From: a virus
Virus record (IMG/VR): IMGVR_UViG_3300024260_000002
Span: 117,623-181,622 of that record
Length of the DNA: 64,000 nt
Reading direction: 5' to 3' (one strand)
Shown here piece after piece: positions 6,635 through 61,779 of this stretch; position 1 is the first letter of the stretch; every line of letters starts with the position of its first letter. The translations under genes and the position numbers were made by a program. A model generated the notes under the pieces. That model was not told the DNA's origin. It worked only from the letters and a program-made list of their open reading frames with translations, and did no database searches.

Positions 6635-6670
6635 TAATCATCCTTTCTTGTTATTTATTTTATATCTAGT

Positions 6671-6678
6671 ATTTGTTA
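6671..6678 (-). promoter_or_regulatory. Late-type promoter motif TAACAAAT
   Basis: The minus strand reads TAACAAATACTAGATATAAA, 37 bases upstream of ATG 6634. The same TAACAAAT core lies before many late operons in this window, usually just after a hairpin. Promoter function is inferred from recurrence. Confidence 0.45.
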
Positions 6679-6696
6679 GAGACCTAAGTCCCTAAC
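6675..6696 (-). terminator. Hairpin after homing endonuclease
   Basis: The minus strand reads GTTAGGGAC-TTAG-GTCTCTAAC, a 9-base-pair stem with one G-U pair. Its 3' arm runs directly into the TAACAAAT motif. It probably ends the endonuclease transcript; the U-tract is weak. Confidence 0.4.
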
Positions 6697-6698
6697 GT

Positions 6699-8408: not shown

Positions 8409-8427
8409 AATTTCCTTTTTAAATATA

Positions 8428-8441
8428 ATTTCTATACTTAA
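8428..8441 (-). promoter_or_regulatory. Early-type promoter motif variant
   Basis: The minus strand reads TTAAGTATAGAAAT, a variant of the recurrent TTACCATAGAAAT motif. It lies 20 bases upstream of the homing endonuclease start at 8408 and suggests expression independent of the late operon. Confidence 0.35.
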
Positions 8442-8467
8442 ATTACTTATCTTGAAAGATAAATAAT

Positions 8468-10687
8468 TTAATATGATTGACCACCATCATCTGAATTCTG
8501 CATTAGCATATCTTTAGCTTGCTTCTTAATAAATCCATCACCTGTTTGAATTAAATCATCCCAGTTCATTTGAGGAATATAAAGCTTCAATAGCTCTTTA
8601 GGATCAATTGTAATCTCAGCAGATTTCAACATACCAATAATATTTGTAACTGAACTAACAAGTGCTTCATTTGCCTGTACTGTTAGTACTAGAGGCGGAT
8701 TCAAAGAAAACGCATAGTAGTTACTTAATAGGAAATCATTTCTATCGTAATCATTATTTTCCAGAACAATAGAGAATATGGAGTTCATCAATTGACTTAA
8801 TGAATCATCAATGTTACCTTGAAATGAAGAAATAGTAGTAGCAAAACTTGTATTAAGATTAACTAATGTTTCTCTTAAATCAACTTGATCGCCGATGTTT
8901 AAATAAACAGATGGAATACCAGTAGCTGCAATAAGTTCATTTCTTAAATCATTCATATCATTAAGGGGTAAGCTGCGATCACCCATAGGCATAACTTCCA
9001 TATCAATAAATCTTTGACCATTTACTTGAATAGTTGCTAAGTCACGGAAATCAGTAATTACCTTACTAATATTCTTAACATTACTTAATGAGTCAAAACT
9101 AATACTTTTATTAGAAATATCTTTCTTTACTTTCTCAATGATCTCAGCATGATTCTTTTTATTACCTGCCTCAATAGTCCATTTACGAACTACAGATGCT
9201 CGTGATAATCTTGAAACAATACTTGACATTAAAGCTAGTGTGTACATCTTAACAGGTTGAATAATTGGATCAAATATACTAGTACCATATGGTCCAAACT
9301 TATCTACAGATGTACTAAAGTTAATTAGTCTATTAGGAGAAACGAATCTAAATTTTAGTTTAGCCCGTTCTTTAATCTTATGATAAAGAATAATCTTGAT
9401 TGAACTTTCAACTGAATCGCTTAGATTTAATTCATCTAAATTATTAGCATGAGAATTACTAATTGTACTGTTAAGTTTTTTAACAACGCCTTTAGTCATC
9501 TGATCAATAATTTCACCACGAATTTCTTCTTCTGAGTTATTAGTACTCTTTGAATTATCTTGTTGTGTAAATCTTTTGAATACATCAATTTCAGAACCTT
9601 GACCATCACCTACATCTTCAACAATAAGGTAACCATAAAGTATCCCATCTTGTTCAATTATAATAACTTGATTGGGAGAAACATTTTTAAGGTAGATATC
9701 TTGAATAGATGAAAAATCTAAATCATTAATATCATCAAAATTATATTCTGAATTTTCACGAGTAATCTCTGAATAATAACCTGTATCAGCTTCTTCTATT
9801 TGAGAGCCAATTATTTTCTTACTTAAAAGGTCTTTAAATTGTTGAGCTGGAGTTGAAACAGGAACAACTTCACCATCCTCAACACTCTCTTCAAGATATT
9901 CGCCTTCTTTTTCAACGTACTCTTCTGCGTCTGATTCAAATATACAATATCCAAAATCCGTTGACTTTGTTTTAGTTTTAACACCAGTAACATAACTTTC
10001 AGTGATAAGCTCACGATGTGATGCTATATCAGCTACAGTCTTTAAATTAAGAATCTCAATAAAACTATTACCATACTTTAACATATCAGGAACAATTCTA
10101 TTTTTCATCTTCTTCTGTAAGTCAAAGTACACAGTACTTGTCTTTAAAAAGTTTTCATAATGCTTACCACTATCTTCTTTAATCGTTTGAAGAAATGCAA
10201 CATTATTTGGATTTGCATTAATATTTAAAAATTGTTTTGTTTGTACATTTTTAATAAGAATATTATCAATATATACTTTTAACATACGATATGCAATAAA
10301 GTTAATATTTGGAATTTCTTCATAAAATTGATAACGTTTTACACGTTCAGTTGGTACACTAATTTCACCTAGATTACCAAGGATATCACTATCAGCTGCA
10401 CCAAGAAGTTTTTTAATATCTTCATCGACTTTTTCATCTTCTGGTCTGTCATCTTCTTGTGCATCAGTTCTCTTTTGATATAATTGTTTTGAAAGTTCTT
10501 GTACTTCAATACTTTGCATCTTAGAGCTATAAGTATTATATGTATTTAAATTACCTACAATATTGTTGTATAAATCGTTAAATTTATCATCCAGATCAGT
10601 TAATACTTTAACTGGTTCTAAAATACTTTGAGCAGAATTAGAAGTTGCAACTTCTTCTTCTGGTTGTTGTTCGTTTTGTCCCCACAT
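8468..10687 (-). CDS. Portal protein (T4 gp20-like)
   Basis: A 739-residue protein forming the head vertex through which DNA is packaged and the tail attaches. The N-terminal ~100 residues are acidic and helical. The central part contains the portal-type beta/alpha clip region. Residues ~590-650 carry the hallmark LPLNDMNDLRNELIAATGIPSV-type segment, in which a displaced loop and helix precede a long helical wing (LRETLVNLNTSFATTISSFQ). The length exceeds T4 gp20 but fits jumbo-phage portals. It lies in the virion operon downstream of the terminase and tail genes. No leader motif is present. Confident. Confidence 0.82.
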   Translation of the reverse strand: MWGQNEQQPEEEVATSNSAQSILEPVKVLTDLDDKFNDLYNNIVGNLNTYNTYSSKMQSIEVQELSKQLYQKRTDAQEDDRPEDEKVDEDIKKLLGAADSDILGNLGEISVPTERVKRYQFYEEIPNINFIAYRMLKVYIDNILIKNVQTKQFLNINANPNNVAFLQTIKEDSGKHYENFLKTSTVYFDLQKKMKNRIVPDMLKYGNSFIEILNLKTVADIASHRELITESYVTGVKTKTKSTDFGYCIFESDAEEYVEKEGEYLEESVEDGEVVPVSTPAQQFKDLLSKKIIGSQIEEADTGYYSEITRENSEYNFDDINDLDFSSIQDIYLKNVSPNQVIIIEQDGILYGYLIVEDVGDGQGSEIDVFKRFTQQDNSKSTNNSEEEIRGEIIDQMTKGVVKKLNSTISNSHANNLDELNLSDSVESSIKIILYHKIKERAKLKFRFVSPNRLINFSTSVDKFGPYGTSIFDPIIQPVKMYTLALMSSIVSRLSRASVVRKWTIEAGNKKNHAEIIEKVKKDISNKSISFDSLSNVKNISKVITDFRDLATIQVNGQRFIDMEVMPMGDRSLPLNDMNDLRNELIAATGIPSVYLNIGDQVDLRETLVNLNTSFATTISSFQGNIDDSLSQLMNSIFSIVLENNDYDRNDFLLSNYYAFSLNPPLVLTVQANEALVSSVTNIIGMLKSAEITIDPKELLKLYIPQMNWDDLIQTGDGFIKKQAKDMLMQNSDDGGQSY

Positions 10688-11407: not shown

Positions 11408-12520
11408 CTATAATTTTATTGTTTTGAACGCTCTATTCGCAGGAACAGTAGCTCCTTGTTTAAAACTTCGATCTAAGTGTTTTATATTAGGCGCAATAAA
11501 ATTCTCAGTTTTAGTTTTATCCATAGAGGCAACAAAACCATTAATTAGAGGTTCAATTGTTAATCTTACATCAACATTTAATGGTTGATTATATTGATTA
11601 AATTGGGTTTCATTACCACCACGAGTAATTGTCATAGCGCTTATACCAGCTAATGGTATACTCATAAGACCTTCTGCTTCAACTTCCCACAATGTAGGGT
11701 AACCAAAATTAAGACCATCATATGAAATAGGAGCAGTTGCTAAAATTAACATTTTTAATGGTTCTAATATATACTTTTTAATAGCATCGGGGTGTCCTGA
11801 AGGACTAACTAATTTAATCATTAATTGTAAACTATTAGTATATTCAGAACGAGTCCATTCTTTTGGTAAAGCTGTTTGGATTCCAAGTGCTTTACCTGCA
11901 CCTAAGTTAAGTAGGGCATTATCACCATTATTTTCACTAAGCAATTTTAAACCATAAGTACTATCAAGTGACGCACCTTTCTTAATTTGTTGCACCTTTT
12001 GAGAAATAGGTAATCCTGATATTGAATTAGTTAATTTTTCAGCACTTGACATTTCAAAAGTATTTCCAAATACTTCAGACATTGTTGAATCATTTGTAGC
12101 TAAAATTCTAAGTTCATCAATGTTACTTGTTAAATCAGCTGGTAGATTTTTATCACTTGAATTTGACATATCATTGTGCCATAAAAGTTCGTGCCATAAT
12201 CGTACTGCTGTTTTTGTTGAAGTACCATCGACTAATGGTACACTTTGAAGTGGAGTTAATCCACCCATTTCATATAAACCATTAGTTGTATCTGAACCAG
12301 TAGTATTTTTTAAACCTAATGATTTTAATAATGTTGCTGAAATCTGTCCAAAATCAACTAAGTATCCAGTGGGTCTTAAATTAATTGTTGTAAGATTATT
12401 TTTTAAACGTTCTTCATAATTTATACCTCTTTCCTTTTTATTTATTTGAGTATTATAACCAGGAACTTTACCAATAACTGTAAAATTCGTATTGTTTCTC
12501 CCTGTTTCAAATGCTGGCAT
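11408..12520 (-). CDS. Tail tube cap/baseplate-like protein
   Basis: A 370-residue protein. The C-terminal third (LWEVEAEGLMSIPLAGISAM, then PLNVDVRLTIEPLI) follows the pattern of T4 gp48/gp54-like and related tube-initiator proteins, in which a tube-type beta-sandwich is followed by a predicted strand of type V-x-V-x-L-x-x-E-P. The N-terminus is Asn/Gly-rich and probably flexible. It is encoded just downstream of the very large virion protein, which could be a tape measure; in T4 the tube-cap gene follows the tape-measure gene. The resemblance is judged by eye, so the exact counterpart is uncertain. Confidence 0.45.
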   Translation of the reverse strand: MPAFETGRNNTNFTVIGKVPGYNTQINKKERGINYEERLKNNLTTINLRPTGYLVDFGQISATLLKSLGLKNTTGSDTTNGLYEMGGLTPLQSVPLVDGTSTKTAVRLWHELLWHNDMSNSSDKNLPADLTSNIDELRILATNDSTMSEVFGNTFEMSSAEKLTNSISGLPISQKVQQIKKGASLDSTYGLKLLSENNGDNALLNLGAGKALGIQTALPKEWTRSEYTNSLQLMIKLVSPSGHPDAIKKYILEPLKMLILATAPISYDGLNFGYPTLWEVEAEGLMSIPLAGISAMTITRGGNETQFNQYNQPLNVDVRLTIEPLINGFVASMDKTKTENFIAPNIKHLDRSFKQGATVPANRAFKTIKL

Positions 12521-12538
12521 TTAAATTCCTTTTATATT

Positions 12539-15500
12539 TTATATTTTCTTAGCTGTTGTAATTGCTTCAGCAAATGCTGAATGTTTATCAATAGTATAAA
12601 CATTCGTTTTACTTGCTTGTAGACCTTGAATAATACCCTGAAGGGCTGCTAATTGCGCCATCATTATTTTTGATTGAGATTCGTTATTAATATCAAGTTT
12701 TGTCATCTTTTCTAACTCAATTGCTTCAAGTTTTAATAATTGCTCATCTTTTTTATCAATTACTCTATCTTCGCTAATGTTCGCGAAAGTACTATCAATT
12801 CTTTGTTGAGATTTTTTTATCTTCATACGATTCTTTTCATACTGAGCTTCTTTCGCTTCTTCTGATGTTAATTGATGAGAAGAATTTTCCGGATCAGTTG
12901 CTACAACTTTACTTTTCTTAAACATACTACTATGGAATTTTTGATTTAACATATCACCATCAGCAGCAAGCATTGCCTTCTGGTCTTTTTTAGATAATGT
13001 TTCCCAATAAGCTCTTCCACCTCTTTCCCAAGTATTATCACCTGATCCCATAGTATAATCAATTAAAGCATTTCCTGAAACATTAGTAGCAACAGTCTTT
13101 CCTGTACGCTCTTTAAGTTCTAAACGAATAGCAGTTCTCACCATTAAATTTAACGTACCTTCTTTAAGCATATACATAAGTTCATCATTATCCATATCTT
13201 TAAAACGAGTACGAAGTTTTGCAATACTTTCATCTTTAAGTTGAGTACTAGTGTTGAAATGTATCATTGCTTCATCTAAATTATTTTTTTGTTCTTTAGA
13301 TATAGCACCATCATTCTTGATACCTGATTTACCTTTTTCTTCTAGTCTTTCTTCTTCAGCATTATCAAAATAAAATTCAGCATATTTATAAGCACTATAT
13401 GCAACAGCCCCTACAGCAAGAGCAGCAGCAACATAAGGAATTCTTAGAACTGCCATAATAGCAGTAGGAAATACGCTACCAATATTTTTTAAAACACCCA
13501 TAAATCCAAGTTTCTTAAAATTAAGTTTACCAAATAAATCTTTAGTACGTTGCCATAGACTAGCACCGCCAGCTGGAGCTTTAGGTTTTGGAACTGTACG
13601 TTTACCAGGACCGCCACCACCGCCACCGAAATCGTAACCGATGCCACCGAATCCGTCTAATAAACCAGACTCTTCTTGATTCTTTCTCATTCTTTTAGAT
13701 ATCTTTTTACGATTACCTTTAGTACAATTTCCACAAACACCATCACGAATTTCTTCTAAAAGGATAAGTTGTCTTTCTTGCATAGAGAATTTACGCTCTT
13801 GTTGTTCTTCCGACTTCTGAGAGTCCTGAGCGTCCTGAGCAGAAACATTTTCAGTTTCATCTTTATTCTTGCTACTAATAGATGATACTGATTGACCATC
13901 AGAATTTAAAAAGTTATCTAGGAAGCTATTACCACCTCTAGCTTTTTTAAGCTGTGAATCAATAAGTTTATCTTCATTTTTAGCGCTAAACATTTGTCCC
14001 CAAATACTAGGACTTGCATTTAATGTAGTCATCTGCTTCATCATTCGGTCTTTAATGTCTTCATCTTTGGCTGCATGATAATCATTACCAGCAAATGTAC
14101 CGTCAAATTTATTCATACTCAATTCATCAAATTTAGAACGCTTTATTGGACCAGCCATTGATTTCAATGATTCCATTTGTGAATGGTTATACTTTAAAAG
14201 TAATTCAAATCTATCAGGATAAGCTTTACCTAAATAATTAGCCATAAGATCCTGAGGACCCAATTCAGTAGCACCAACTGCGTCTCGTAAAGCTTCTTCA
14301 CTGTTAAGAGTAGTATTACTCAAATCACTGGCCATCCAATCGTACATAACTTCTTGTAATCCGCGATTCTTCTTACGTTTCTTCTTAGCACCCATTTTAC
14401 CACTAGCTTGACGCTCCATGATAGTATCACCGTTTTCGTCTGTTTCATATACTTGATTTCCATCAGCGTCTTTTTCAAGATCACCACCAAACATGTCCTT
14501 CACCCAGTTATAGCCACCGGATGCCATCTTAGCAGTACCAGATAATACATTATACCCTGGAATATAACCAAGTTTTTCATCAATAGTTTTAAAATGTGAT
14601 TCATAAAAAGAATCATCAGCCATATTATTGATTTCATTCTCTTCACGAATTCTAGCGAGAAGACCATGAGATGATGCTTGAGTAATACCGAAGCCATCAG
14701 TACGAATTTTTAAAAGTTCATGTGCTGAGAATCTACTAATTTCAGAAATAAGACCAAGAATAGATAATTGTTTAGATTCAAATGTACTAGCTTTACTCAT
14801 AATTTGAGAGGGTGTTGTATGTATAGCTTGAACTAAAGAACTTGAAACACCCATCTTCTCAGCAAATTGTTCTTCACTTTGTAATGCATCAACACCTTTA
14901 ATTTTACTATTCGCAGTGTTATACATTTCAGTAACTGATTTACCTTGCAGTGTAGCACTTAAATAAGTACCAGGATCGAAAGTACTTAAAGCGTTAGCCA
15001 TACCCATTTCGATTCCACCAAAGAATCTATTAGTTAAACTTACATCTTTTGTTGAAGAGTCTGCAGAGTGTATGGTACCATCATCGCCAAATGTATCACT
15101 TAAAGTCTTTTGACCTCCGTAACCACCTTCTTTATTTTTACGAGATTCATTATCTACAGACTCAGCTGCAATAAAAGGTAGAACTGATGTGTGACCTTCA
15201 ATCATTGCTAAAATATTAGCAATAAGAGATTCACCAGGTTTCATCTGATGTTGATTTTGCAAACGTTTAATTTGCATTTGTAGCATACGCGTACTACCAT
15301 AAGTAGTTTCTAGTTCATGTGGACTAGTACCCATAGTAGTCATTTGTGTACGATTAATTTCTATTTTAGTACTTGAGTCTTTACTCATATACTTATTTAA
15401 CGCACCGGCACCTTTCTGCATTGCTATCATAGAAGCAATGCCCATACCCATTGGGCTCAATCCAGAGATAGCAGCTTGACCAGCACTTCCTAGTCCTAAC

Positions 15501-16113: not shown

Positions 16114-18067
16114 AATTACTCATATCATATTCTTTTAGATCAGGTTTCTTTTTATCACTTTTAAAATGAAAACCATCTTCGTTCTCAACCCATTCATCTG
16201 ATTCTTGACCAGTACTACCGCCCGTGCCAATTGTAACACTGATAAAGTCCATTATAGTTTCAGGAGTTAAAGCAAATGCTTGTATCTCACCATCTACTTG
16301 AAGTTCACCACTCTTAATCATTAACTTACGAACATATAAACAGAAGTTATAAGCCATAACAACATCATCATGTTGTCCACGCATTGCTTCAATACGTCCA
16401 TTAGCTTTTTGTTCTAGGTTTCGTAGTTCGTCAATAAGCATATCACTATGAAATAAATCAGGACGACCATTAACTTGATTCATCAGTTCATTAAACATCT
16501 GATCACGTTTACCATTACCCATTTTACCAGCATTTGAAGTATATAAACCAAATGTATAATCACCAGTTGGTTCACCTTTACCATTTTTTACTTCTTCTTG
16601 ATATAAATATGCTTCATAATCGAAGTCATCAACCAATGGATCATTATAAAGTAATTCCTCAACTGTTTCTTTACCAATCGAGTTTCTCTCAATAATGACT
16701 CTTAGTGTTTCTTCGTTAACATTATATAGTTTACTTAGTCCTTGGACCGCAGCTTTTACAAGAGCAGCAAATCTTTTAACAACAGAGAATTTACCTTTCC
16801 ATGCACCTACTTCTTGACCTGAAACAGCATGTACTAAACTCAAAGCACTATAATCCGAATTGATACCAGCACTCATAGCGGTATCCACACCAAGTAAATA
16901 TATTTCACCTGGAATTAATTCAGAGAACATTTCAAGTTTATGACCAAAAGGCAATTGCATCTCATGACTAGATTTTTTAGGAACAAGCTTACATATAACA
17001 TCATCAGAGAATATAGATGTACTTGAACCAAGAAATACTAAGTCAAGTTCCTGATTAATCTTACGTTGATTAAAGTTCAGTTCCTTACATTGCTTATTAT
17101 ACCAATCTTGATCTCTATGTGTATCACTCCAAAGAATTTTCATACTAATAAATGCATTCTTTTCAGGATCATCCATAGTAACTTCATAACCATCATAAAG
17201 AACTTTATTCTCATAATCATATATATCATCAAACTTAACTGATCTTTGTAATATGCCGTAGAACCAGTTACCACCAGCACCATTAGGTGTTGATACCGCA
17301 ATCATACAAGTAGGATAACCAAATTTCTTAGCAAATATTTTCGCTGTTGAAATAGATGGTTGCATTGCGGAATAAACAATATCCATATGTTTAATAAAGG
17401 CTGCCTCATCCAGGATTATAATACTTCCTGAAAGTCCACGACCAAGAGTATCAGGATCAATACTACCAGAAACGAACATAGTATCAAACATACTCTTATT
17501 CTTTAAGTGAAAGAATGTAGTTCTTTCGGCTTTAGAAGCATTTGGTACTCTCATCCAATTAGGAAGCTTACTCATCATTTCTTTTAAACGAGCAACTGCA
17601 TCCTTACCACGATTACTATCTAATGTTAGGAATGCTATCTTAATACCAGGAAAGAATACCATACAATACAATGCATATAGTAATGCTAGTGTAGTCTTAC
17701 CAATCTGGCGAGAACTAATAAACGCGACATTATCTTGCAATTCAAATAATTTAAAAAGTAATCTAAATTTATTTGAACTTTGCCATTGTTCTGAACTTCC
17801 CATGTGAATAAATCCACCAGTTACGGGAGTATATGCATATTTCTCTACCCAATACAACGGAGACATTTTACATTTCATCCATTCTATCATTTGCTCATTA
17901 GCCGACATATTTTTATTGTAATGATCTTCTCCTAAATACTCAGGAACCTTTATTACAGGTTTTTCTTTTACAATAATACCTTCCACTACCTCAACTTCTG
18001 AAGCTGGGTCTTTCCATATATCATTATCTTCTTCTAAAGACTCTTCATCGTTTAGTATTTCTGACAT
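16097..18067 (-). CDS. Terminase large subunit (T4 gp17-like)
   Basis: A 656-residue DNA-packaging ATPase-nuclease. The ATPase domain shows a Walker A-type ISSRQIGKTT (residues ~117-126), a following FFPGIKIAFLT strand and Walker B SIIILDEAAF (~215-224). The coupling motif VSTPNG comes later. The nuclease domain has GVDTAMSAGINSDYSALSL (RNase-H fold, first Asp) and GQHDDVVMAYNF near the end. Length and domain order match T4 gp17. The start has a clear AAAAAGGA ribosome-binding site. The terminator stem overlaps its stop. Upstream lies a palindromic promoter-like module at 18086-18237. Confidence 0.93.
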   Translation of the reverse strand: MSEILNDEESLEEDNDIWKDPASEVEVVEGIIVKEKPVIKVPEYLGEDHYNKNMSANEQMIEWMKCKMSPLYWVEKYAYTPVTGGFIHMGSSEQWQSSNKFRLLFKLFELQDNVAFISSRQIGKTTLALLYALYCMVFFPGIKIAFLTLDSNRGKDAVARLKEMMSKLPNWMRVPNASKAERTTFFHLKNKSMFDTMFVSGSIDPDTLGRGLSGSIIILDEAAFIKHMDIVYSAMQPSISTAKIFAKKFGYPTCMIAVSTPNGAGGNWFYGILQRSVKFDDIYDYENKVLYDGYEVTMDDPEKNAFISMKILWSDTHRDQDWYNKQCKELNFNQRKINQELDLVFLGSSTSIFSDDVICKLVPKKSSHEMQLPFGHKLEMFSELIPGEIYLLGVDTAMSAGINSDYSALSLVHAVSGQEVGAWKGKFSVVKRFAALVKAAVQGLSKLYNVNEETLRVIIERNSIGKETVEELLYNDPLVDDFDYEAYLYQEEVKNGKGEPTGDYTFGLYTSNAGKMGNGKRDQMFNELMNQVNGRPDLFHSDMLIDELRNLEQKANGRIEAMRGQHDDVVMAYNFCLYVRKLMIKSGELQVDGEIQAFALTPETIMDFISVTIGTGGSTGQESDEWVENEDGFHFKSDKKKPDLKEYDMSNYLIGM

Positions 18068-33278: not shown

Positions 33279-36200
33279 TTAGAGATTTGCTTCGAGACCT
33301 GCACCTTGAAAGAATATTTTAATCATATTTAAAGATGTTAAATCTTCAGATTCGATATCAATATCAAACGATTCAGGTATTTCATTGTTTCTAACAATTT
33401 CATTAATCATTTTCTTTTTAGCTTTACTAGCATCCGACTTCATAGCATGCATTTCTTTTATAAGACCATAAGGTCTTTTTGAAAGTAATGAATTCATATC
33501 GTATAGACCAATCTTAATAGCACCGGTACCTTCTTTAGTACCACTTCGACCTTGACCAGTTATCCAGTTCTTAGAAGTATTTAAAGAACCACGAGTTGAT
33601 GACATTGCTTGAGGAAAATGTTCTAGCATATTGATTGGTAAGATACCAACAGGAACTGCTCTAGTTGTAACAATACCATTATTTTCAAGAATCTTAACTT
33701 TCTCATTCAAAGGGACACCAAGTACATCAGCAGCTTTTTGGATATTAGAAATAGTTAACTTATTTTTAAATGGTGGTACAATAGCAGGGAATGCTGGATT
33801 ATTTAAAGGATGACTATTATTGATAATTTTAGAGATTTCTTTTGTTGATTTTTTAAAGAACTCATTAAGTTGTTCAATTATAATATGATCTTTTGTTTCA
33901 TCCAAATGACCAAACACTTCCATAACTAGTTTTTTAATAGCTAAAATTTTACCTTGTTTATTAAGTTCTAAACAAGCTTCATTAAGATAATAAATAACTT
34001 TACCTAAGTACATGGCTAGAAGTATACTAGGATTCTTACGAGAAATAATACTCAGAGGAGTACCAATAAATTCAATCTTAAGTCCAGTTTCCTCTGCAAT
34101 AGGTTCCATATCTTTACCCATAACATATTGAACAGTACCTTTACCACCTGAACTAGTCAGTGTAAACTTTGAACCATTAATAACAGGATTAACCTTTTCA
34201 ATATAAACTTCAATAATAGCTCCATCAATTTCTTCTTGATTGAACTTATGACCACCAATAGTTAATGTTTCAGAATTTTCTAAATGTCCAATACAATCAA
34301 TATAATCATCATTATTGTCGGTATCAGCTTTACATGCGGCAGCTTTTTTAGAAATAGTATCAGTTGTTTGTGAATGTAATGCTAAAATTGGTTTAGGTAA
34401 TTTTTTAGTATTTAATTTAACAACGATTTCTTTTATTGTTCCACCAGGACTAAGATAAGTCTTAGTTAAACCGTCTTGAACTAATCCAACCATTGTAGAT
34501 TCTTCATCGTCCTCAAGGTCATCATCAATAAATTCTTCTGATGTATTATACTTTATTAAAACATCACCTGCTTTCGTAATATTACCTTGTTTTAAATTTA
34601 ATTCTGATAATTTAGCACCAGTTGTAAATTTAATATTAATCTTTTGAAGAACTTTATTAGAAAATTTATCAGTCAGTGTATCACTAACAACCCAACCATC
34701 TTCATAATTCATTCCAAGATATCCCATCTCTGCAACAACAAGGTTTTTACCAATAGCTAACTTACCTGTTTTAAGTGAATCTGTTGTAGCTAAGATTTGA
34801 CCTTCTTTAACTTTCTCACCAGCGCTTACTAAAGAACTATATTTTGTAGCAATATAAATACCACGCTTTGTACGCGATTTAACAGGTGTTATAGCGATAG
34901 TTTCTACTGACTTATCATTGTATTGCACTTTGATAGTTTCACTTGTAATCGCTTTAATAACGCCTTCTTTCTTAGCTTTCTTAGAAAATCTATCTGAAAC
35001 TAAATGAGGAACATAACTTTCAAAACCTGTTTGAACTAAAGGAACATCCGGCTTCTCAAGTTGAATAAACTGAGCAGTTTGTTGATTACCCATTACACGA
35101 CGAGTTGTATCATCATATTCAAAGAAAGGACTTAATGATTCAATAGGACTAAGGTTCTCAAATGCATTACTATCATTAGTAAATTCTCTACGAGAAATTG
35201 ATCCAAATCTATCATCAATACGTGCACCATTGGTGAGTGTTTGATTTATACCAATACCACCATACTCATTAGTTGCAGTAGGAGCAATTGTACCAAAATA
35301 ACTAGGATTTGTATCTCTACGATTAAGAGTAACATCTTGTTTACGAACGTTACCAATACCTACTTTAGTTACTTTTAAACTTAACATCATTTCCTCAACA
35401 GGATTCAACGTTTTAGTGTACTGAAGTATACCAGCATCTAAAAGATTCTTAATAATATAATCATTTTGCATATATATTTTTTCATTACTTAATTGCTTAC
35501 GAGCTTTAAATTTAGAAAGTGCTTGATGCATTTGATTATAAGCTACACTTGTAATAGTCTCAGACATTCTTAAACGATAATTATCTAAATCATATTGACT
35601 CTTAGAAGTTCTTTGTCCTAGTAGTTCAACCATTTCATTAGTGAATACACCTGGTAGATCTGTACTTTGACCAGCATCTTCAAGAATCTTTTTTGTACTT
35701 CCATCAATAAATTTATATTCAACATCATATAAATTCTTTGCAGATGTAGCACCTTGTTTATTAACAATAACTTTCATCATTGCATTGCTAAGACCTTCAA
35801 GTGTAGGAGAAAATATTTCATTGTTTAATTTATAAGTGTTAAGACCATTTGCATAGTTCCATTGGTGCTGATTCTTAGGATATAAACACAAATATTGTCT
35901 TGCACCATCTTCTGTTGTAAAGTTCATTACAATACCAGCGTCATTGTCTTTTTTATCTTTAAATTGAAATTCTAATTTCATAATACCAAATGCAGATTTC
36001 ATAGTACTTCTATTAATTAAAAGAAATACTGCTAAAGGAACATTCTTTCCAAGGATTCTCATTTCATAGAAAGGCTTTGAACTTTTACTCTTTTTAATAA
36101 TATCTTCACCCGATACTAAATTATTAATTTTATTATATATATTGAAAATAAATTCATTTAAATGAGCTTTGTTGATATGATTAACATCACCATCTTCAGT

Positions 36201-36377
36201 CTTCGAATAGATATAATCTGATCCACCACGAAGATACGCGTACTCTACAATCTCAGAAGTATTTCCAAGTCCCGCTTTTCTTCTTTCATAGAATTGGAGA
36301 ACTTTAACTTGTTCACCATCTATTGTTTTTGAGACCTCATTTTTGAGATCGATTATGTAATCGTTTTTTACAGCCAT
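33279..36377 (-). CDS. Phage RNA polymerase beta subunit, C-terminal part
   Basis: A 1032-residue protein. Segments match the beta-subunit C-terminal half: YGGIGINQTLTNGARIDDRF-type fork region, KNLVVAEMGYLGMNYEDGWV (conserved N-M-x-Y-E-D), GGKGTVQYVMGKDMEP (G-x-K-G-T/V), SIISRKNPSILLAMYLGK, and near the end KEGTGAIKIGLYDMN and RPYGLIKEMHAMKSDASKAK. It would form half of a noncanonical multisubunit polymerase like those of phiKZ- and AR9-type phages. The ribosome-binding site (AAGGAATTATC) lies inside the preceding homing endonuclease gene. Confidence 0.82.
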   Translation of the reverse strand: MAVKNDYIIDLKNEVSKTIDGEQVKVLQFYERRKAGLGNTSEIVEYAYLRGGSDYIYSKTEDGDVNHINKAHLNEFIFNIYNKINNLVSGEDIIKKSKSSKPFYEMRILGKNVPLAVFLLINRSTMKSAFGIMKLEFQFKDKKDNDAGIVMNFTTEDGARQYLCLYPKNQHQWNYANGLNTYKLNNEIFSPTLEGLSNAMMKVIVNKQGATSAKNLYDVEYKFIDGSTKKILEDAGQSTDLPGVFTNEMVELLGQRTSKSQYDLDNYRLRMSETITSVAYNQMHQALSKFKARKQLSNEKIYMQNDYIIKNLLDAGILQYTKTLNPVEEMMLSLKVTKVGIGNVRKQDVTLNRRDTNPSYFGTIAPTATNEYGGIGINQTLTNGARIDDRFGSISRREFTNDSNAFENLSPIESLSPFFEYDDTTRRVMGNQQTAQFIQLEKPDVPLVQTGFESYVPHLVSDRFSKKAKKEGVIKAITSETIKVQYNDKSVETIAITPVKSRTKRGIYIATKYSSLVSAGEKVKEGQILATTDSLKTGKLAIGKNLVVAEMGYLGMNYEDGWVVSDTLTDKFSNKVLQKINIKFTTGAKLSELNLKQGNITKAGDVLIKYNTSEEFIDDDLEDDEESTMVGLVQDGLTKTYLSPGGTIKEIVVKLNTKKLPKPILALHSQTTDTISKKAAACKADTDNNDDYIDCIGHLENSETLTIGGHKFNQEEIDGAIIEVYIEKVNPVINGSKFTLTSSGGKGTVQYVMGKDMEPIAEETGLKIEFIGTPLSIISRKNPSILLAMYLGKVIYYLNEACLELNKQGKILAIKKLVMEVFGHLDETKDHIIIEQLNEFFKKSTKEISKIINNSHPLNNPAFPAIVPPFKNKLTISNIQKAADVLGVPLNEKVKILENNGIVTTRAVPVGILPINMLEHFPQAMSSTRGSLNTSKNWITGQGRSGTKEGTGAIKIGLYDMNSLLSKRPYGLIKEMHAMKSDASKAKKKMINEIVRNNEIPESFDIDIESEDLTSLNMIKIFFQGAGLEANL

Positions 36378-40466: not shown

Positions 40467-40710
40467 AACGATCCTCGCTTTTATCTCTCACATAATCTTC
40501 AATAGCATCATTAACAATACTATCTACTTTACCATTAAAAGATTCTAGTAAAAAATCTAAAAAACATTGAGTACTTTGATCAACATCACCTTTAAAAACC
40601 AATTGACCTTTATCAAATTCAAGTCTGCCTACTTCACCTTTAGCATCATTAAATACTAAATTATATTGAGGTTCTATCTTAACTTGTTTTTCATCTGAAT
40701 GATAATGCAT
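40459..40710 (-). CDS. Small hypothetical protein
   Basis: An 83-residue protein. ATG 40710 (MHYHSDEKQ) follows AAGGATTGGTA and overlaps the CYTH stop (TAATG), so translational coupling is likely. The N-terminal half is strand-rich and the C-terminal half acidic and helical. The function is unknown. Confidence 0.42.
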   Translation of the reverse strand: MHYHSDEKQVKIEPQYNLVFNDAKGEVGRLEFDKGQLVFKGDVDQSTQCFLDFLLESFNGKVDSIVNDAIEDYVRDKSEDRCG

Positions 40711-41165
40711 TACCAATCCTTATATGGGAGTTTAATTAAGCTTGAGTTAAAATATTTAGGATCAGTAAGCTCTTTTCCTAACCACGACGGTTTATCAAAA
40801 TTTTGATCAGCGTTTTTAAATTCAACTTCTGCAACAACAAGACCTTCGTTATCACCATGAAATACATCTACTTCAATTATTAAGTCATCCCATGAAACAT
40901 TATAACGGGTCTTACTTATTGCACCAGGACATAACTTCAACATTTGTATAGCATCTACCTTTGGAATATTGTATTCAAACTCATCTCGAGTAATGCTAAT
41001 ATTAGCACCTTTAACTGTGATATATGCAACGTTATCTTTTATTCTGACTCTTACTACGCTTTCGTCAGTAATGCTCAAATAACCTTGTTTAATCTTATTA
41101 GGTGACTTCGCAAATTTTAGAAATTCATCACTTAGAACTTCAAACTTTCTTTCAATCTCTTTCAT
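40710..41165 (-). CDS. CYTH-domain triphosphatase or adenylate-cyclase-like enzyme
   Basis: A 151-residue protein. CYTH hallmarks are KEIERKFEV (E-x-E-x-K), IKQGYLS, VVRVRI, AYITVKG, EFEYNI, KTRYNV, IIEVDVFHGDNEGLVVAEVE and WLGKELT. All tunnel-lining acidic and basic residues appear present. Family members hydrolyse inorganic or thiamine triphosphate or make cAMP (class IV cyclases). Small stand-alone CYTH proteins are usually triphosphatases. It overlaps the nuclease-like gene upstream by 14 bases. Confidence 0.78.
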   Translation of the reverse strand: MKEIERKFEVLSDEFLKFAKSPNKIKQGYLSITDESVVRVRIKDNVAYITVKGANISITRDEFEYNIPKVDAIQMLKLCPGAISKTRYNVSWDDLIIEVDVFHGDNEGLVVAEVEFKNADQNFDKPSWLGKELTDPKYFNSSLIKLPYKDW

Positions 41166-44018: not shown

Positions 44019-44243
44019 ATGACTAAAGTAAGATTAATAACAGAAGTATCTAAAAAGATACTAGAAATAAATGATTGTGGCATAGATGCCACAATTGATG
44101 TAACAGCATCAAACGGCAAAAGAGTTGCCCAATTTGGTAACTCAGATTTAGACTTAGATATAATCAGAACAAATATGGTTATGTCATTAATAGATGTGAA
44201 AGGTGATTTCGATTATGAAATCACACACAAGAATAGTCAGTAG
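44019..44243 (+). CDS. Small early protein
   Basis: A 74-residue protein with alternating strands and helices (VRLITEVSKKILEINDCGID). It has its own promoter-like motif and a terminator at 44235-44268, so it is a monocistronic early gene. No family is recognised. Confidence 0.55.
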   Translation: MTKVRLITEVSKKILEINDCGIDATIDVTASNGKRVAQFGNSDLDLDIIRTNMVMSLIDVKGDFDYEITHKNSQ

Positions 44244-44268
44244 CAATTGCTACTGACTATTTTTATTT
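44235..44268 (+). terminator. Terminator after 44019 gene
   Basis: AGTCAGTAGC-AATT-GCTACTGACT followed by ATTTTTATTT. Its T-tract overlaps the end of the convergent HD-GYP gene. Confidence 0.75.
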
Positions 44269-45330
44269 GATTGTTTCTTTAATTTGCTCGAACTTATATT
44301 TATTGTTAAAATATAATTCAATTAAATCAGGATCAAATGATACTCCAGATTCTTCTTTAAAATATGTATCTATTTCTGATTCCAACCAAGCATTTTTATA
44401 AGGTCGAATTGAACTTAAAGCATCATATACATCAGCAATTGCTACCACTCGTCCTTCTATACTTATACTTTCTTCTTTAAGTTTATTTGGATAACCTGTA
44501 CCATTCCATTTTTCATGATGATGATAACTAATAAGTCCAGCTGTTTTTAATACTGACAATTCTGAATGTTTAAATATGTCATGACCAAGTTTCGTATGAT
44601 CTTTCATTATTTCAAATTCATCTATTGTTAATTTTCGTGGTGCATGTAAAATATTATCATCTATTCCTATTTTACCTGCATCATGCATAGGAGCAGCATA
44701 CTTAATCAACTTGCTACGTTCCTCTGATAATCCATAAGCTCTTGCTAAAATATATGAATACTCAGCAACTCTTGCAACATGATGTTTTAAATCAGTATCT
44801 TTTCCTTCAATAATAGAACTCAAGTTGATAATAAGTTCTCTTTGTGATTCTTCAATTTCTTGACGAAGATCAATAAGTTCTGTTATATCTTGACGAAGAG
44901 CTAAAAATTCAAATATTTTATTATTTTTTATAATTGGAAAAATTGATAAAACACTCCATTTTGTTTCATTGAACTTAGTTTTATAACTAATATTACCTTT
45001 CCATATTTTACCAGATGATATAGTTCTCCACATATCTTTATAAATAATAGGATCAGTATCATTATCTTTGATTATAGCATGAGTCTTACCTATAACCTCA
45101 CCAAGTGTTAAATTATAAACTCTAAGAAATTCAGCATTTGCATACGTTATTACCCCTGCAATATCTGTTTTTGATATACAATAATTATGATTGAATATAT
45201 CTTTATATTGAAACGCTATATCAATATCTGATGAGTCATGAGAAAATACATTACAATGTCTAGGACAGAATAGATGTCTAATATACCGAACAGGGTTAAA
45301 TCTGCTGAGTGTCTCAAAACAATTTACCAT
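44263..45330 (-). CDS. PAS-HD-GYP protein, predicted c-di-GMP phosphodiesterase
   Basis: A 355-residue protein. Residues ~50-155 are a PAS domain of the Aer-like type (GVITYANAEFLRVYNL, GEVIGKTHAII, W-x-G-N-I-S-Y). Residues ~170-330 form an HD-GYP domain with complete signatures: HHVARVAEYS, MHDAGKIGI, HTKLGH, YHHHEKWNGTGYP. HD-GYP enzymes degrade cyclic di-GMP. The N-terminal HLFCPRHCNVFSH is Cys/His-rich. Both domains are common in Campylobacterota signalling proteins, so acquisition from the host is likely. It lies in a phage accessory region next to early genes. Confidence 0.85.
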   Translation of the reverse strand: MVNCFETLSRFNPVRYIRHLFCPRHCNVFSHDSSDIDIAFQYKDIFNHNYCISKTDIAGVITYANAEFLRVYNLTLGEVIGKTHAIIKDNDTDPIIYKDMWRTISSGKIWKGNISYKTKFNETKWSVLSIFPIIKNNKIFEFLALRQDITELIDLRQEIEESQRELIINLSSIIEGKDTDLKHHVARVAEYSYILARAYGLSEERSKLIKYAAPMHDAGKIGIDDNILHAPRKLTIDEFEIMKDHTKLGHDIFKHSELSVLKTAGLISYHHHEKWNGTGYPNKLKEESISIEGRVVAIADVYDALSSIRPYKNAWLESEIDTYFKEESGVSFDPDLIELYFNNKYKFEQIKETIK

Positions 45331-45341
45331 AGTTTCTCCTT

Positions 45342-45626
45342 TTATTTTAAGTAATATATACCTTCGTTTATACCACTATCTAAATAATTTGTTGAGTACC
45401 TGTCTTTGCCAAATTCACAAAATACCTCATATTCATTATTTTTATCTTTAATGTTTGTTGTGATTAATAATTTATGACAATAGTTCTTAATTTGTATTGT
45501 TGTCTGCTTATTTCTTGTTTTTAGTGATAATATATCACCACCGTTATAACCCGTAAATGTTTTAATATTAAATATATCCAATTCGATAGCATACTTAATT
45601 AATGATTTCATATCTTTATTATACAT
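45342..45626 (-). CDS. Hypothetical protein, tandem paralogue A
   Basis: A 94-residue protein. MKSLIKYAIELDIFNIKTFT, GYNGGDILSLK and FCEFGKD align with the neighbouring gene at 45733-46020, showing tandem duplication. No known family. Confidence 0.48.
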   Translation of the reverse strand: MYNKDMKSLIKYAIELDIFNIKTFTGYNGGDILSLKTRNKQTTIQIKNYCHKLLITTNIKDKNNEYEVFCEFGKDRYSTNYLDSGINEGIYYLK

Positions 45627-45660: not shown

Positions 45661-45708
45661 AAGAATCATCTATTAAACTTTTTATTAAGGGTTTAATAGA
45701 TGATTCTT
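45661..45708. terminator. Bidirectional-looking hairpin between paralogues
   Basis: 18-base perfect arms (AAGAATCATCTATTAAAC) around a 12-base loop, A/T-rich on both flanks. Confidence 0.6.
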
Positions 45709-45732: not shown

Positions 45733-46020
45733 TTATTTAAGACTATATGATTTAAAATCATTTAAATCATCATTTAAATCTAAAGTTATATCATTTCCAA
45801 ATGCGCAAAATATAGTAGCAAAATCAGAATTTTTATCTTTTTTAATATTAGTATCTATATTAATACCATGACAGTATCTTTTTAATCTTTTTAAGTGATC
45901 AATATTTGGTGACTTAAAACTAATTATATCACCACCTTTATATCCATCGAAAGTATTAATACTTTCGATGTCTAATTCTAAGGCATACTTAACTAAAATT
46001 TTCATTTTATTAATATACAT
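45733..46020 (-). CDS. Hypothetical protein, tandem paralogue B
   Basis: A 95-residue protein with MKILVKYALELDIESINTFD, GYKGGDIISFK and FCAFGND, matching paralogue A in order and spacing. The AAAAGGA ribosome-binding site supports ATG 46020. The leader region upstream contains a 20-base-pair stem (46061-46124). Confidence 0.48.
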   Translation of the reverse strand: MYINKMKILVKYALELDIESINTFDGYKGGDIISFKSPNIDHLKRLKRYCHGINIDTNIKKDKNSDFATIFCAFGNDITLDLNDDLNDFKSYSLK

Positions 46021-50661: not shown

Positions 50662-50686
50662 AATAGAATAGCTAAGCTATTCTATT
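50662..50686 (-). terminator. Terminator after MBL-fold gene
   Basis: AATAGAATAGC-TTA-GCTATTCTATT followed by CTTGTG on the minus strand. Confidence 0.65.
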
Positions 50687-51468
50687 AGACCTAAATTAAA
50701 TTCTTGACCTCTACGAACAATACCAGCAAAGCCAGCTTCTTCCGCTAAGGTTTCATATTCCCAAATATGTTTATCATTTAAAGCATAGTGGTATAACCAC
50801 ATTTTAGCTTTAACTTCATCTGGTAACTCTTTAAGTTCATGAAATTGCGTATGAACTGAACCAAGATACTCTGCAAATTCACAATCATGAAAAATTATAG
50901 TACTTGTTTCATATTGTGTAAAACTCTCAGGTAATTTACAATCACCAGATATGAATACACTATGTTCATTGTATTCCCATGATAAACCAAAACTTGGTAC
51001 ATCATTTTCACCATTATTTACATGAGTAGACAATTCAGGCGAGAATTCAATTCCTTCAAAAAAGAAGATACCATTATCAGTATGAGAAGTTATATCAAAA
51101 TAATTTGATAATTCCATCTTTTGACCATGAATTGCTCCAAGACCACCTTTCCAAGTACATTCCCAACCATTTTTAATGATATCATCATGTGCTATCATTC
51201 TAGGTTTGTGTTGACCAAATGGAAAACCATCAAAGTATGTTTTAAACGCTACAAATTCAACACCACCGGCATGATCAGCATGCAAATGACTAATATAAAT
51301 ATCAGTAATATCTTGCAATGAAACACTATTAAAAAGCAATGCATCATTAATAGTAGTTCCACAATCATAAAGAAGATTTGATGTACCTTCTGAAATTAAA
51401 ATATTACTTTGAAAATTCTCTTCATGATTTACAAAAGCACTACCACTTCCTAAAAATTTAATTTTCAT
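50677..51468 (-). CDS. Metallo-beta-lactamase-fold phosphodiesterase, Apyc1-like
   Basis: A 263-residue protein. ATG 51468 (MKIKFLGSGSAF) is chosen; the longer frame upstream only shadows the preceding gene. Motifs: LLYDCGTTI, ISHLHADHAGGVEF (H-x-H-x-D-H), THVNNG, PSFGLSWEY, FISGDCK, FHDCEF and KMWLYHYA near the C-terminus, so all five metal-binding motifs of the fold are present. From memory, the order and spacing resemble Apyc1, the phage anti-Pycsar enzyme that cleaves cyclic mononucleotides, and its relatives. RNase Z-like enzymes are the alternative. Confidence 0.68.
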   Translation of the reverse strand: MKIKFLGSGSAFVNHEENFQSNILISEGTSNLLYDCGTTINDALLFNSVSLQDITDIYISHLHADHAGGVEFVAFKTYFDGFPFGQHKPRMIAHDDIIKNGWECTWKGGLGAIHGQKMELSNYFDITSHTDNGIFFFEGIEFSPELSTHVNNGENDVPSFGLSWEYNEHSVFISGDCKLPESFTQYETSTIIFHDCEFAEYLGSVHTQFHELKELPDEVKAKMWLYHYALNDKHIWEYETLAEEAGFAGIVRRGQEFNLGLIE

Positions 51469-58953: not shown

Positions 58954-59544
58954 ATGAACGAACTTAGTAAATATACAGTAAGAGAGTTTTTTAAGGAGTT
59001 TTATTTAAGTAATGATGACGCTCATCAAATTAGTCACGCTGATGATGTATGTGATTTAGCATTAACAATTAATAAGAAGCTTGGAGATTTATATAGTGAA
59101 GAGTATATAATATTAGCAAGTTATGCTCATGATATTTATTCAGATGAGTTAGGAAGAAAGAACCATCATAAATTAGCATATAGCTACATTATGAATACAA
59201 AGAGTGCTATATTTGAGACGATAAGCGACGAGGGTAAAGGTATCATCGCTTGCGCTGTATTTGAGCATAGAGCATCATATACAGGCGATTTTACTTCTAA
59301 ACTAAGTGAGATCATTAGTGCTGCAGATAGAGGAGTTCCAAACTATAAAGATATTTATAATAGAGCTTTAAAATATGCTAAGGGTGATCATAACCAGACT
59401 GAACTTCATATGATTGATAAGTATGGTAGAAACGGGTATGCTAAATATCCTGATGCTTATATTAAGATATTTAAAGAAGAGCTTGAAGAGCTTTATACTA
59501 TTATTGATTCTTTGAATCCAGAGACAAGAAAGGACATAGCATAA
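58954..59544 (+). CDS. HD-domain phosphohydrolase
   Basis: A 196-residue protein. The metal-binding pattern is H in ISHADDV, HD in SYAHDIYSDE, HH in GRKNHHKLAY, H in FEHRASYTG and D in SAADRGV, consistent with the HD superfamily (nucleotidases and phosphodiesterases). It is expressed from the early-type plus-strand promoter and ended by a strong terminator. Substrate unknown; nucleotide or signal-nucleotide hydrolysis is plausible. Confidence 0.72.
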   Translation: MNELSKYTVREFFKEFYLSNDDAHQISHADDVCDLALTINKKLGDLYSEEYIILASYAHDIYSDELGRKNHHKLAYSYIMNTKSAIFETISDEGKGIIACAVFEHRASYTGDFTSKLSEIISAADRGVPNYKDIYNRALKYAKGDHNQTELHMIDKYGRNGYAKYPDAYIKIFKEELEELYTIIDSLNPETRKDIA

Positions 59545-59562
59545 GCTATGTCCTAGTTTTAT
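59532..59562 (+). terminator. Terminator after HD-domain gene
   Basis: GGACATAGC-ATAA-GCTATGTCC followed by TAGTTTTATTG. Confidence 0.75.
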
Positions 59563-59573
59563 TGTTTAGATTT

Positions 59574-60068
59574 TTAAATTGCCGGTACTTTTATTTGTAT
59601 ATGACCACTGAATGATTTTTCAACACTGGGCAGTTGATGTTTGATAAGTAATACATTATACGAAACAGCTGTATCCACCTGGACTTCATTTGAGACGGAA
59701 CTTGGTTTATTAGTATCTCCGTCAATAAAGTAATTCGTTACTACTGTGTCATATGTTATAACATGTTCAAATTTTTCAATAATTTCATAATTAACATATA
59801 TTTTACGATCCGGGCGGTATGTAGTTGTATATGTTTGTTCGTTTAAATCTGTAGTATTTGATAGAGTTAATATAGTACCATTAAATGTAAAATCGTGCAT
59901 AGTTTTTTCTTCATCAATCCATATAATTAATTTACCAGTTGCTGGTACATCTTGTGCTTTAATTTCCATTAAAGTAGGATTATATGAATTGTCTACATTA
60001 GCTGTTAAGTCAAATAGTAAAAAGGAAGCATCATCTGTAGTATATAAAGTACCTTTAGTAATATTCAT
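59574..60068 (-). CDS. Beta-rich hypothetical virion protein
   Basis: A 164-residue protein with alternating strands and Thr/Asn-rich turns (TYTTTYRPDRKIYVNYEIIE). No family is recognised. It is last in the minus-strand operon that begins beyond the right edge. A structural role fits the composition. Confidence 0.42.
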   Translation of the reverse strand: MNITKGTLYTTDDASFLLFDLTANVDNSYNPTLMEIKAQDVPATGKLIIWIDEEKTMHDFTFNGTILTLSNTTDLNEQTYTTTYRPDRKIYVNYEIIEKFEHVITYDTVVTNYFIDGDTNKPSSVSNEVQVDTAVSYNVLLIKHQLPSVEKSFSGHIQIKVPAI

Positions 60069-60078
60069 GATGTTATCC

Positions 60079-60813
60079 TTATTTACCTAATTCGTCAAAT
60101 CTACCTGCAATAATCTTTTCAAGATCGGTTTTCTCAGGGTCATATGTTCGTGTGATATTATCACTTACAGCATCTTTTGTATAACCATAATTATAACCAA
60201 CTCCTGAATTAAATCTATGTGCAGATTGTTTAGTCGAAATAGCATTGCTTTTTGTATATTTTTGATTTGAAGTTAAACGTGTAGGAATAAATCCTTCATC
60301 TGTATATTCACCATAAAGTAAAGTTAATATAGTTTCAATATGATGCATTTGTACATTTGTAGTACTTAATAGTTGATCATAAATTGCAACCGCATGTTTT
60401 TGTAAATCACCTCTTAGGTATTTAACTCTATTTTCAAATAGTTTATCAAGTACCATAATATCAGTAGCATTGCTCTTAGTACTAGCAAAACATATCAAAT
60501 CACCTTTATTAAAATAATATGTAGTTACACTACCATCTTTTTCATAAAAATCTGGTATAACTAGATTGATATCAAATTGAAAATATAATTGAAGTTCATC
60601 TTGTCCTTGGACTTCAATATTCAAAATACCAGGAATTTTGATAGACCCAACTAAAGTCTCAGATGATTCATCTGAGACATCAACAAGTTCTTCATCATCC
60701 AATTTTAATTCATCTGAATCGATTCTAATAATTAAATCCATATATGCAACAATACGATGTTCTTCTATGGTTAAATATTTTTCAATCTTTTCTTTAGTCG
60801 TTAATTTTGCCAT
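60079..60813 (-). CDS. Hypothetical virion-operon protein
   Basis: A 244-residue protein. The N-terminal two thirds are strand-rich with an acidic loop (ELVDVSDESSETLV). The C-terminal part (SNQKYTKSNAISTKQSAHRF) is polar. No family is recognised. It is preceded by the leader-like gene at 60828. Confidence 0.42.
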   Translation of the reverse strand: MAKLTTKEKIEKYLTIEEHRIVAYMDLIIRIDSDELKLDDEELVDVSDESSETLVGSIKIPGILNIEVQGQDELQLYFQFDINLVIPDFYEKDGSVTTYYFNKGDLICFASTKSNATDIMVLDKLFENRVKYLRGDLQKHAVAIYDQLLSTTNVQMHHIETILTLLYGEYTDEGFIPTRLTSNQKYTKSNAISTKQSAHRFNSGVGYNYGYTKDAVSDNITRTYDPEKTDLEKIIAGRFDELGK

Positions 60814-61082: not shown

Positions 61083-61240
61083 TATTTACCCTTCTGATTT
61101 GCTTTGGTTCTATCTCTAGATGTTTTTAACATTCTATGTCTAGCGATAGTTTCTTTTGAAGCCTTTTCTTTTTTACCAATTCTGGATAAATTAGACTCAC
61201 TTAAATATTTTTCTTTATATACTTGTTGAAGTGTTTGCAT
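61082..61240 (-). CDS. Small basic protein
   Basis: A 52-residue protein (MQTLQQVYKEKYLSESNLSR, then Lys/Arg-rich). It overlaps the Acb1-like gene end by 1 base and the next gene start (TAATG). YLSES may be a weak leader site. Possibly nucleic-acid binding. Confidence 0.48.
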   Translation of the reverse strand: MQTLQQVYKEKYLSESNLSRIGKKEKASKETIARHRMLKTSRDRTKANQKGK

Positions 61241-61779
61241 TATTTCTTTTCCTTATTATCTTTATTGTCTTTATCATCTTTTAAAGAATCTTCGACCCAA
61301 TCTTCATTAAGTGGACTTATTCGTTCTTGAATGATTTCAATAGTATTACCAATAAATGGTTTAGTAAGATCTTTATTTTTTTTAAAGTCTAGATCAAAAC
61401 CTTTACAGTTATACATCAATGTAACATGAGCTGTGTAATTAGGATAATCCGTAGTTGCACCTGATTTAATAGCTCTTTGGAATTGAGTTTCACACCAAGG
61501 ACATTCTAAAACAACATGAAGATTCTTTCCTTCATCTGTATCAAAATGACCAAAGCCTTTTATCTTAATAAGCTTTGATATAGTATCTTCTGCTTTTCCA
61601 TCAACTTGTTTTGTTCCCTTAGATGTCTTTAGAAAAGGAACAGGTTTTGAAGAGTATGTTAATGTACAATGATATGCATCTGTAAAGTCTTTTTTAAGAC
61701 CAAAACTTTTTATTATACTATCTAATTTTTTATTACTTTCTTTCGAGAAAATAATGTCTGCGTAAGTACCTTGTGCCAT
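61240..61779 (-). CDS. acb1: Acb1-like 2H phosphoesterase (anti-CBASS)
   Basis: A 179-residue protein. Two H-x-T motifs, YHCTLTYSS and YTAHVTLMYN, are the 2H-phosphoesterase signature. Flanking segments GTYADIIFSKESNKKLDSII, KGFGHFD, LHVVLECP and TTDYPNY resemble T4 Acb1 (gene 57B), which cleaves the cyclic oligonucleotide signals of CBASS. A ~20-residue Lys/Asp tail (KDDKDNKDNKEKK) is additional. Activity on the host's own messenger is inferred. Confidence 0.72.
   Translation of the reverse strand: MAQGTYADIIFSKESNKKLDSIIKSFGLKKDFTDAYHCTLTYSSKPVPFLKTSKGTKQVDGKAEDTISKLIKIKGFGHFDTDEGKNLHVVLECPWCETQFQRAIKSGATTDYPNYTAHVTLMYNCKGFDLDFKKNKDLTKPFIGNTIEIIQERISPLNEDWVEDSLKDDKDNKDNKEKK

Follow-up and report, generated by a model that had tools for sequence, protein, structure and literature searches.

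In the 64,000-nucleotide stretch of viral DNA analysed here (the window; bases 117,623–181,622 of a source record of 181,622 bases), the minus strand of positions 44263–45330 carries an ORF of 355 aa, designated P0001, that begins with an ATG at 45330 and ends with a TAA at 44263. These are exactly the limits given by an earlier first-pass annotation, which named no strand; the plus strand of the same interval is full of stops. A Shine–Dalgarno sequence, AGGAG, can be read a few bases 5′ of the start codon (45336–45340). The preceding ORF on the same strand (45342–45626; 94 aa, unknown fold) ends 11 bases before P0001 and is probably co-transcribed with it. It adjoins a paralogue of 95 aa, also minus strand and of unknown fold (45733–46020), and it is possible that one of these two proteins pairs with P0001 as a two-gene unit. 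The 94-aa ORF and P0001 are enclosed by two hairpins with a putative terminator role: a long, AT-rich inverted repeat of 20 pairs lies 5′ of the unit and is terminator-like on the plus strand (45661–45708), whilst a terminator-like hairpin of 13–16 pairs is found directly 3′ of the P0001 stop codon (44232–44261). The GC content of P0001 is 28 % (0.41/0.31/0.12 by codon position) and its codon use is that of the phage core genes; to judge by the nucleotide sequence, the gene appears maintained in both its codon use and its expression signals.

The source record is that of a real tailed phage, with a TerL gene (PHROG match, 8.5e-35), a helicase and an endolysin, and at 181.6 kb it falls below the 200 kb cut-off for jumbo phages, although the record is possibly incomplete. 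Several further genes were noticed in the window. An RNA polymerase beta-subunit-like protein (33279–36377, minus strand; Rpb2 domain 6, 1.6e-12) has a homologue of 42 % identity in the related phage G057. Homing-endonuclease-like ORFs of several families, recognized by eye, are scattered through the genome (6699–8408, 24700–25716, 36368–37273, 37419–38555, 51883–52596, 52623–53504 and 54490–55632, all minus strand), and many have homologues in G038, G057, G058 and G060. One of the few plus-strand genes in its region (58954–59544) appears by eye to be a second HD-domain-like ORF and matches phrog_3921 (8e-41), a family of unknown function.

Domains and active site of P0001

P0001 combines an N-terminal tail (residues 1–49; 45184–45330) that contains a CPRHC motif, a PAS sensor domain (residues 50–151; 44878–45183) and an HD-GYP phosphodiesterase domain (residues 154–355; 44266–44871), all on the minus strand; no membrane part is apparent. 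Pfam matches for PAS_9 (2e-7, residues 55–151), HD_5 (1.2e-24, residues 171–336; 87.4 bits against a curated cut-off of 27.2) and HD (2.1e-18) all lie above their curated cut-offs. An AlphaFold model generated from an alignment of 20 rows had a mean pLDDT of 80.8 and a pTM of 0.67, with values mostly above 90 in the HD-GYP domain and below 50 for residues 1–47, such that the tail has no confident fold. The model matched the GAF-HD-GYP protein PmGH (4mcw) across both domains (Z 31.2), the rmsd of 11.4 Å presumably reflecting a different arrangement of the domains. It also matched the PAS-HD-GYP protein DvhD over 286 residues (Z 21.5), the HD-GYP domain of PA4781 (4r8z; Z 28.5, rmsd 1.6 Å, 199 residues) and, with its PAS domain, MmoS (Z 16.9, rmsd 1.6 Å).

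By sequence, the PAS domain is closest, among solved structures, to the flavin PAS domains of MmoS (3ewk, 1.1e-19), Aer (8dik, 3.4e-15) and NifL (2gj3, 7.9e-9), followed by LOV domains, which agrees with the description of an Aer-like sensor in the first-pass annotation. The fold is the same, at 24–33 % identity in the structure matches, and two Trp and one Asn of the Aer domain align with Trp101, Trp110 and Asn65 of P0001. As the Aer segment RHPDMP reads KDNDTD in P0001, however, we infer, rather than assert, that the domain binds FAD.

The HD-GYP domain is complete (residues ∼154–352), as had been claimed, and is most informatively compared with that of PmGH from Persephonella marina, a c-di-GMP phosphodiesterase with a tri-iron centre (1e-49 by sequence). 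The two align over 202 residues without gaps, so a constant offset places the PmGH metal ligands E185, H189, H221, D222, H250, H276, H277 and D305 at D180, H184, H216, D217, H245, H271, H272 and D300 of P0001 (active-site alignment: DDHHDKHHHGYPIDDRK in P0001 versus DEHHDKHHHGYPIDDRK in PmGH). The same offset relates the putative catalytic residues D183 and K225 to D178 and K220, and D308, I294, R314 and K317 to D303, I289, R309 and K312. P0001 thus contains the HD diad (H216 D217), the HH pair (H271 H272) and GTGYP at 277–281, with GYP itself at 279–281. These positions can be weighed against alanine exchanges in PmGH, which covered all eight ligands as well as D183, K225, D308 and the GYP/substrate residues (Bellini et al., PMC4159591). 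Seven of the eight ligand positions are identical in P0001, and the only change, E185 to D180, is conservative, E or D at this position defining the carboxylate group (Bellini et al., PMC4159591). Read in order, the ligand positions of P0001 are D,H,H,D,H,H,H,D, and the remaining residues are kept as well. The alignment thus shows no loss of metal ligands, the outcome that the first-pass annotation had named as refuting its proposal. With every active-site position kept, the domain appears intact to a degree far beyond chance. Directly after the E/D ligand, where T-G is usual, P0001 has L-K (D180-L181-K182; E-T-Q in PmGH, of subgroup E/D-T-G), and because this signature triplet is missing, P0001 was not filed in the trinuclear E/D-T-G subgroup despite its carboxylate. 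Otherwise, the two proteins share the order of sensor domain followed by HD-GYP domain and differ in having GAF or PAS as the sensor, and in being bacterial or viral.

Viral relatives and origin of the gene

The first-pass annotation considered such a protein rare in phages, and our searches bear this out. P0001 matched none of 38,880 PHROG phage families, and a tblastn search of 50,697 phage records yielded 35 matching records, none of them covering 80 % of the protein. Most of the 35 are unannotated faecal contigs, with 28 of the matches being to unannotated 'Bacteriophage sp.' entries, and no clear jumbo-phage homologue was found in this collection except for one doubtful record. Among annotated phages, an HD-GYP match occurs only in Microcystis phage MaAM05 (MW495066.1, L027), whose 'cGAMP phosphodiesterase' we rejected as a phage gene; it sits among trxB, coaD and secE, and the region looks like bacterial sequence inside a phage record. 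In BFVD, at an E-value of 0.001 or better, the named matches were labelled as PAS, kinase, GGDEF or other signalling proteins, and none bore an HD-GYP name.

Whilst no close relative was found when IMG/VR was scanned with the P0001 sequence by itself, profile scans of the same resource (A1, A4 and A6) returned 112, 2 and 24 relatives, respectively, the 112 being HD-GYP relatives from among 2.9 million contigs. Of the records with these HD-GYP relatives, 38 were tested for a terminase, which was found in 18. Among the best 80 of the 112 relatives, only L030 has a PAS domain besides its HD-GYP domain, and it is the one other clear phage protein with this layout in IMG/VR (36 % identity to P0001). 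A multi-PAS HD-GYP protein from scan A4, L129, was discounted, as it is encoded at one end of a record that resembles a prophage, beside bacterial-looking ORFs. L030 derives from phage G020 (IMGVR_UViG_3300026488_000025, 79.7 kb) and is, like P0001, a short PAS-HD-GYP protein from a phage with a histidine-kinase gene; unlike P0001, it adjoins tail-fibre-like genes and has lost three active-site residues, with I, F and K at the positions of D178, D180 and H184. These phage proteins need therefore not all be fully active, and L030 may represent an altered enzyme or a binuclear one. A third phage, G038, encodes a stand-alone HD-GYP protein (L062; gene at L114:4244–5282) whose gene overlaps by 8 bases a GGDEF gene, the two being flanked by a DNA-polymerase-like ORF on one side and an ORF for a UvrD-like helicase on the other (both named by eye). 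This overlap ties a phage HD-GYP protein to c-di-GMP-type signalling, and the two genes are candidates for a viral pair that makes and breaks c-di-GMP. The GGDEF protein (156 aa) has an intact GGDEF motif and a short C-terminus (profile positions 3–96 of 161), and may not be a cyclase.

HD-GYP proteins of jumbo phages have been reported as predicted cyclic-nucleotide-acting enzymes (Iyer et al., 2021; PMC7824862), so the kind was already known among large phages; the passages concerned make no mention of a PAS sensor, and it is the sensor-fused, fully intact form that sets P0001 apart.

In HD-GYP trees built from a sample that contained no Campylobacterota genome, P0001 was placed inside a large clade, near proteins of several phyla that we take to be of the REC-DUF3369 and GAF types. 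The best bacterial HD-GYP domain found is 49 % identical to that of P0001, and by full-length score L030 surpasses everything compared (214 bits, with 190 for the best bacterial protein). Constraining P0001 and L030 to one clade gave a likelihood above that of the free tree (p-AU 0.62). In our first tree P0001, L030 and L062 fell into one starred clade together with a Clostridia protein; support dropped once long rows were removed, and as the three-phage clade was thereafter merely not rejected (p 0.23), we do not claim a common viral origin.

Kinase and receiver genes in related phages

A gene comparison of G020, G038 and the phage carrying P0001 revealed few common genes, with a histidine kinase present in all three. 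In the P0001 phage this is a membrane protein of 450 aa (L213:1659–3011, minus strand; record bases 59,058–60,410, outside the window) with an HATPase_c match (7e-7) and a weak HisKA match that includes an H-box. Eight viral loci were identified by scanning with the three kinases, and as six of these lie in new records, the kinase is present in nine records in total. In eight of the nine (the exception being G020) a receiver-like gene lies beside the kinase gene, in the P0001 phage at L007:398–1069 on the minus strand. Among the residues invariant across the eight receiver-like proteins are an acid pair (D62 D63), the phospho-acceptor D118 and K200, which make up the response-regulator signature. 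All PDB matches to a profile of the family were response regulators or CheY proteins, with weak E-values; a scan with the receiver pair returned no matches. Kinase and receiver possibly form a viral two-component system. The P0001 phage, G038 and G057 share a gene order of small helical/membrane ORF, receiver, kinase, small secreted-looking ORF and outer-membrane-like protein, the last two located directly after the kinase and, in the P0001 phage, at L006:18788–19057 and L006:17625–18791 (minus strand; DUF3373, 5e-10, for the outer-membrane-like protein).

HD-GYP genes were found in three of the nine kinase records (G000, G020 and G038), and also in G045, which lacks the kinase. As no HD-GYP gene was detectable in the other six, some of which are fragments, we gave up the notion of an obligate partnership between HD-GYP and the kinase operon. 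The 167 kb record of G057 has the most similar kinase (57 % identical) and yet no detectable HD-GYP gene, which makes the latter accessory: what is conserved is the kinase–receiver pair, with HD-GYP as cargo.

Proposed function and alternatives

We consider it probable, from the residues and domains described above, that P0001 is a phosphodiesterase of cyclic dinucleotides under sensor control, with c-di-GMP as its most likely substrate; c-di-GMP is the main lifestyle signal of bacteria, which destroy their own c-di-GMP with enzymes of this kind. The product would be soluble, a long helix connecting a flavin/redox-type PAS domain with an HD-GYP domain that is catalytically complete and has a predicted multi-metal centre. 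Its most likely action in the infected cell would be to hydrolyse host c-di-GMP, yielding pGpG, GMP or both. The PAS domain would set this activity by the redox or energy state of the cell, and motility, surface-glycan, biofilm output or other c-di-GMP-dependent responses might shift to the benefit of the phage. The activity itself, c-di-GMP as the main substrate, the direction of control and the gain to the phage are what we infer here.

The first-pass annotation had further proposed that P0001 forms a second-messenger-erasing set with Acb1- and Apyc1-like enzymes. Both of these genes are real Pfam members: an Acb1-like 2H phosphoesterase (61240–61779, minus strand; 4.8e-23) with visible HxT motifs HCT and HVT, and an Apyc1-like phosphodiesterase of the metallo-beta-lactamase fold (50677–51468, minus strand; Anti-Pycsar_Apyc1, 1.2e-19) that likely starts at MKIKFLG inside a longer ORF extending to 51579. 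T4 Acb1 is reported to cleave signals that contain one or more A but not cGG, and the substrates of Apyc1 are cyclic mononucleotides (PMC9117128); an HD-GYP enzyme would therefore fill the substrate gap at c-di-GMP, rendering the three complementary. The genes are not adjacent, however, lying ∼5 kb (Apyc1-like) and ∼16 kb (Acb1-like) from P0001, and neither Acb1 nor Apyc1 was found in nine further viral records that carry HD-GYP, the shared kinase or both, some of them fragments. We thus accept the inventory of the three genes, whilst a functional set is not supported.

Phages erase the cyclic-nucleotide alarm signals of defence systems, and 3′3′-cGAMP is also cleavable by HD-GYP proteins. The main rival to a c-di-GMP enzyme is counter-defence, with P0001 chiefly destroying 3′3′-cGAMP or another CBASS-type cyclic dinucleotide as a companion of the Acb1- and Apyc1-like enzymes encoded by the same phage. 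A clear relative, V-cGAP3 (5z7c), is annotated as a 3′3′-cGAMP phosphodiesterase, and such a role is predicted for jumbo-phage HD-GYP proteins by Iyer et al. (2021; PMC7824862). We nevertheless regard this as rather unlikely: P0001 is nearer by sequence to PmGH than to V-cGAP3 (173 versus 106 bits), its non-redundant contribution beside an Acb1 that spares cGG would be c-di-GMP, Acb1 and Apyc1 do not co-occur with HD-GYP in related records, and a PAS sensor is unexpected on a constitutive counter-defence enzyme. A role as a receptor or scaffold that binds c-di-GMP without cutting it is suggested by DvhD of Desulfovibrio vulgaris (9rc0), a receptor with the same PAS-then-HD-GYP order and two-domain fold, and by the residues lost in L030. 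DvhD is membrane-bound and inactive, with SQ replacing HD and no HH pair (PMC13090378), whereas P0001 retains both HD and HH along with the remaining ligand positions; on these residues we rejected a DvhD-like receptor, which seems distinctly improbable.

The presence of the gene may also be explained without any role in infection. HD-GYP genes are very numerous in bacteria, their distribution among the related phages is accessory, and the stretch around P0001 (∼40.2–49.2 kb of the window) has almost no homologues in G057, as would be expected of a recent bacterial passenger. This appears improbable given the conserved active site, phage-like codon use and strong ribosome-binding site, a best bacterial domain of only 49 % identity, and a second phage protein of the same layout that can be sister to P0001. 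Chimeric assembly or bacterial contamination, conceivable for a metagenomic record that has no completeness estimate, is scarcely credible when GC content and codon use equal those of the phage core genes, neighbouring ORFs on the one contig are of the same style and a protein of this kind recurs in a second phage.

If P0001 is indeed an intact c-di-GMP enzyme with its own sensor, it would represent a phage steering host behaviour according to physiology. A precedent for phage proteins that touch host c-di-GMP turnover is Dap1 of Pseudomonas phages, which, as described in PMC12846349, inhibits a host phosphodiesterase, whereas P0001 would itself be one. The related viruses with similar enzymes and sensor-kinase switches hint at a tuning of host behaviour that goes beyond self-copying. 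More tentatively, and with considerable doubt, large phages might carry sensory circuitry of their own: a conserved operon of receiver and membrane kinase with a putative periplasmic sensor, to which some would add a PAS-HD-GYP hydrolase of c-di-GMP under redox control, and one a GGDEF partner. Such circuitry would read the outside and the inside state of the host and rewrite c-di-GMP, for example in lysis timing or host motility. P0001, the kinase/receiver pairs and the one phage GGDEF gene specify small, expressible proteins with which to ask whether viruses run second-messenger circuits.

Two further observations concern genes elsewhere. A CYTH-domain protein (window 40710–41165, minus strand; Pfam 4e-15), with a triphosphate-binding fold, could also act on nucleotides. 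Furthermore, L009 contains a run of about nine radical-SAM-like ORFs, recognized by eye from CxxxCxxC-type motifs (4553–9773, 12122–13048, 13906–15009 and 16322–17302, minus strand), beside sugar-nucleotide-type genes.
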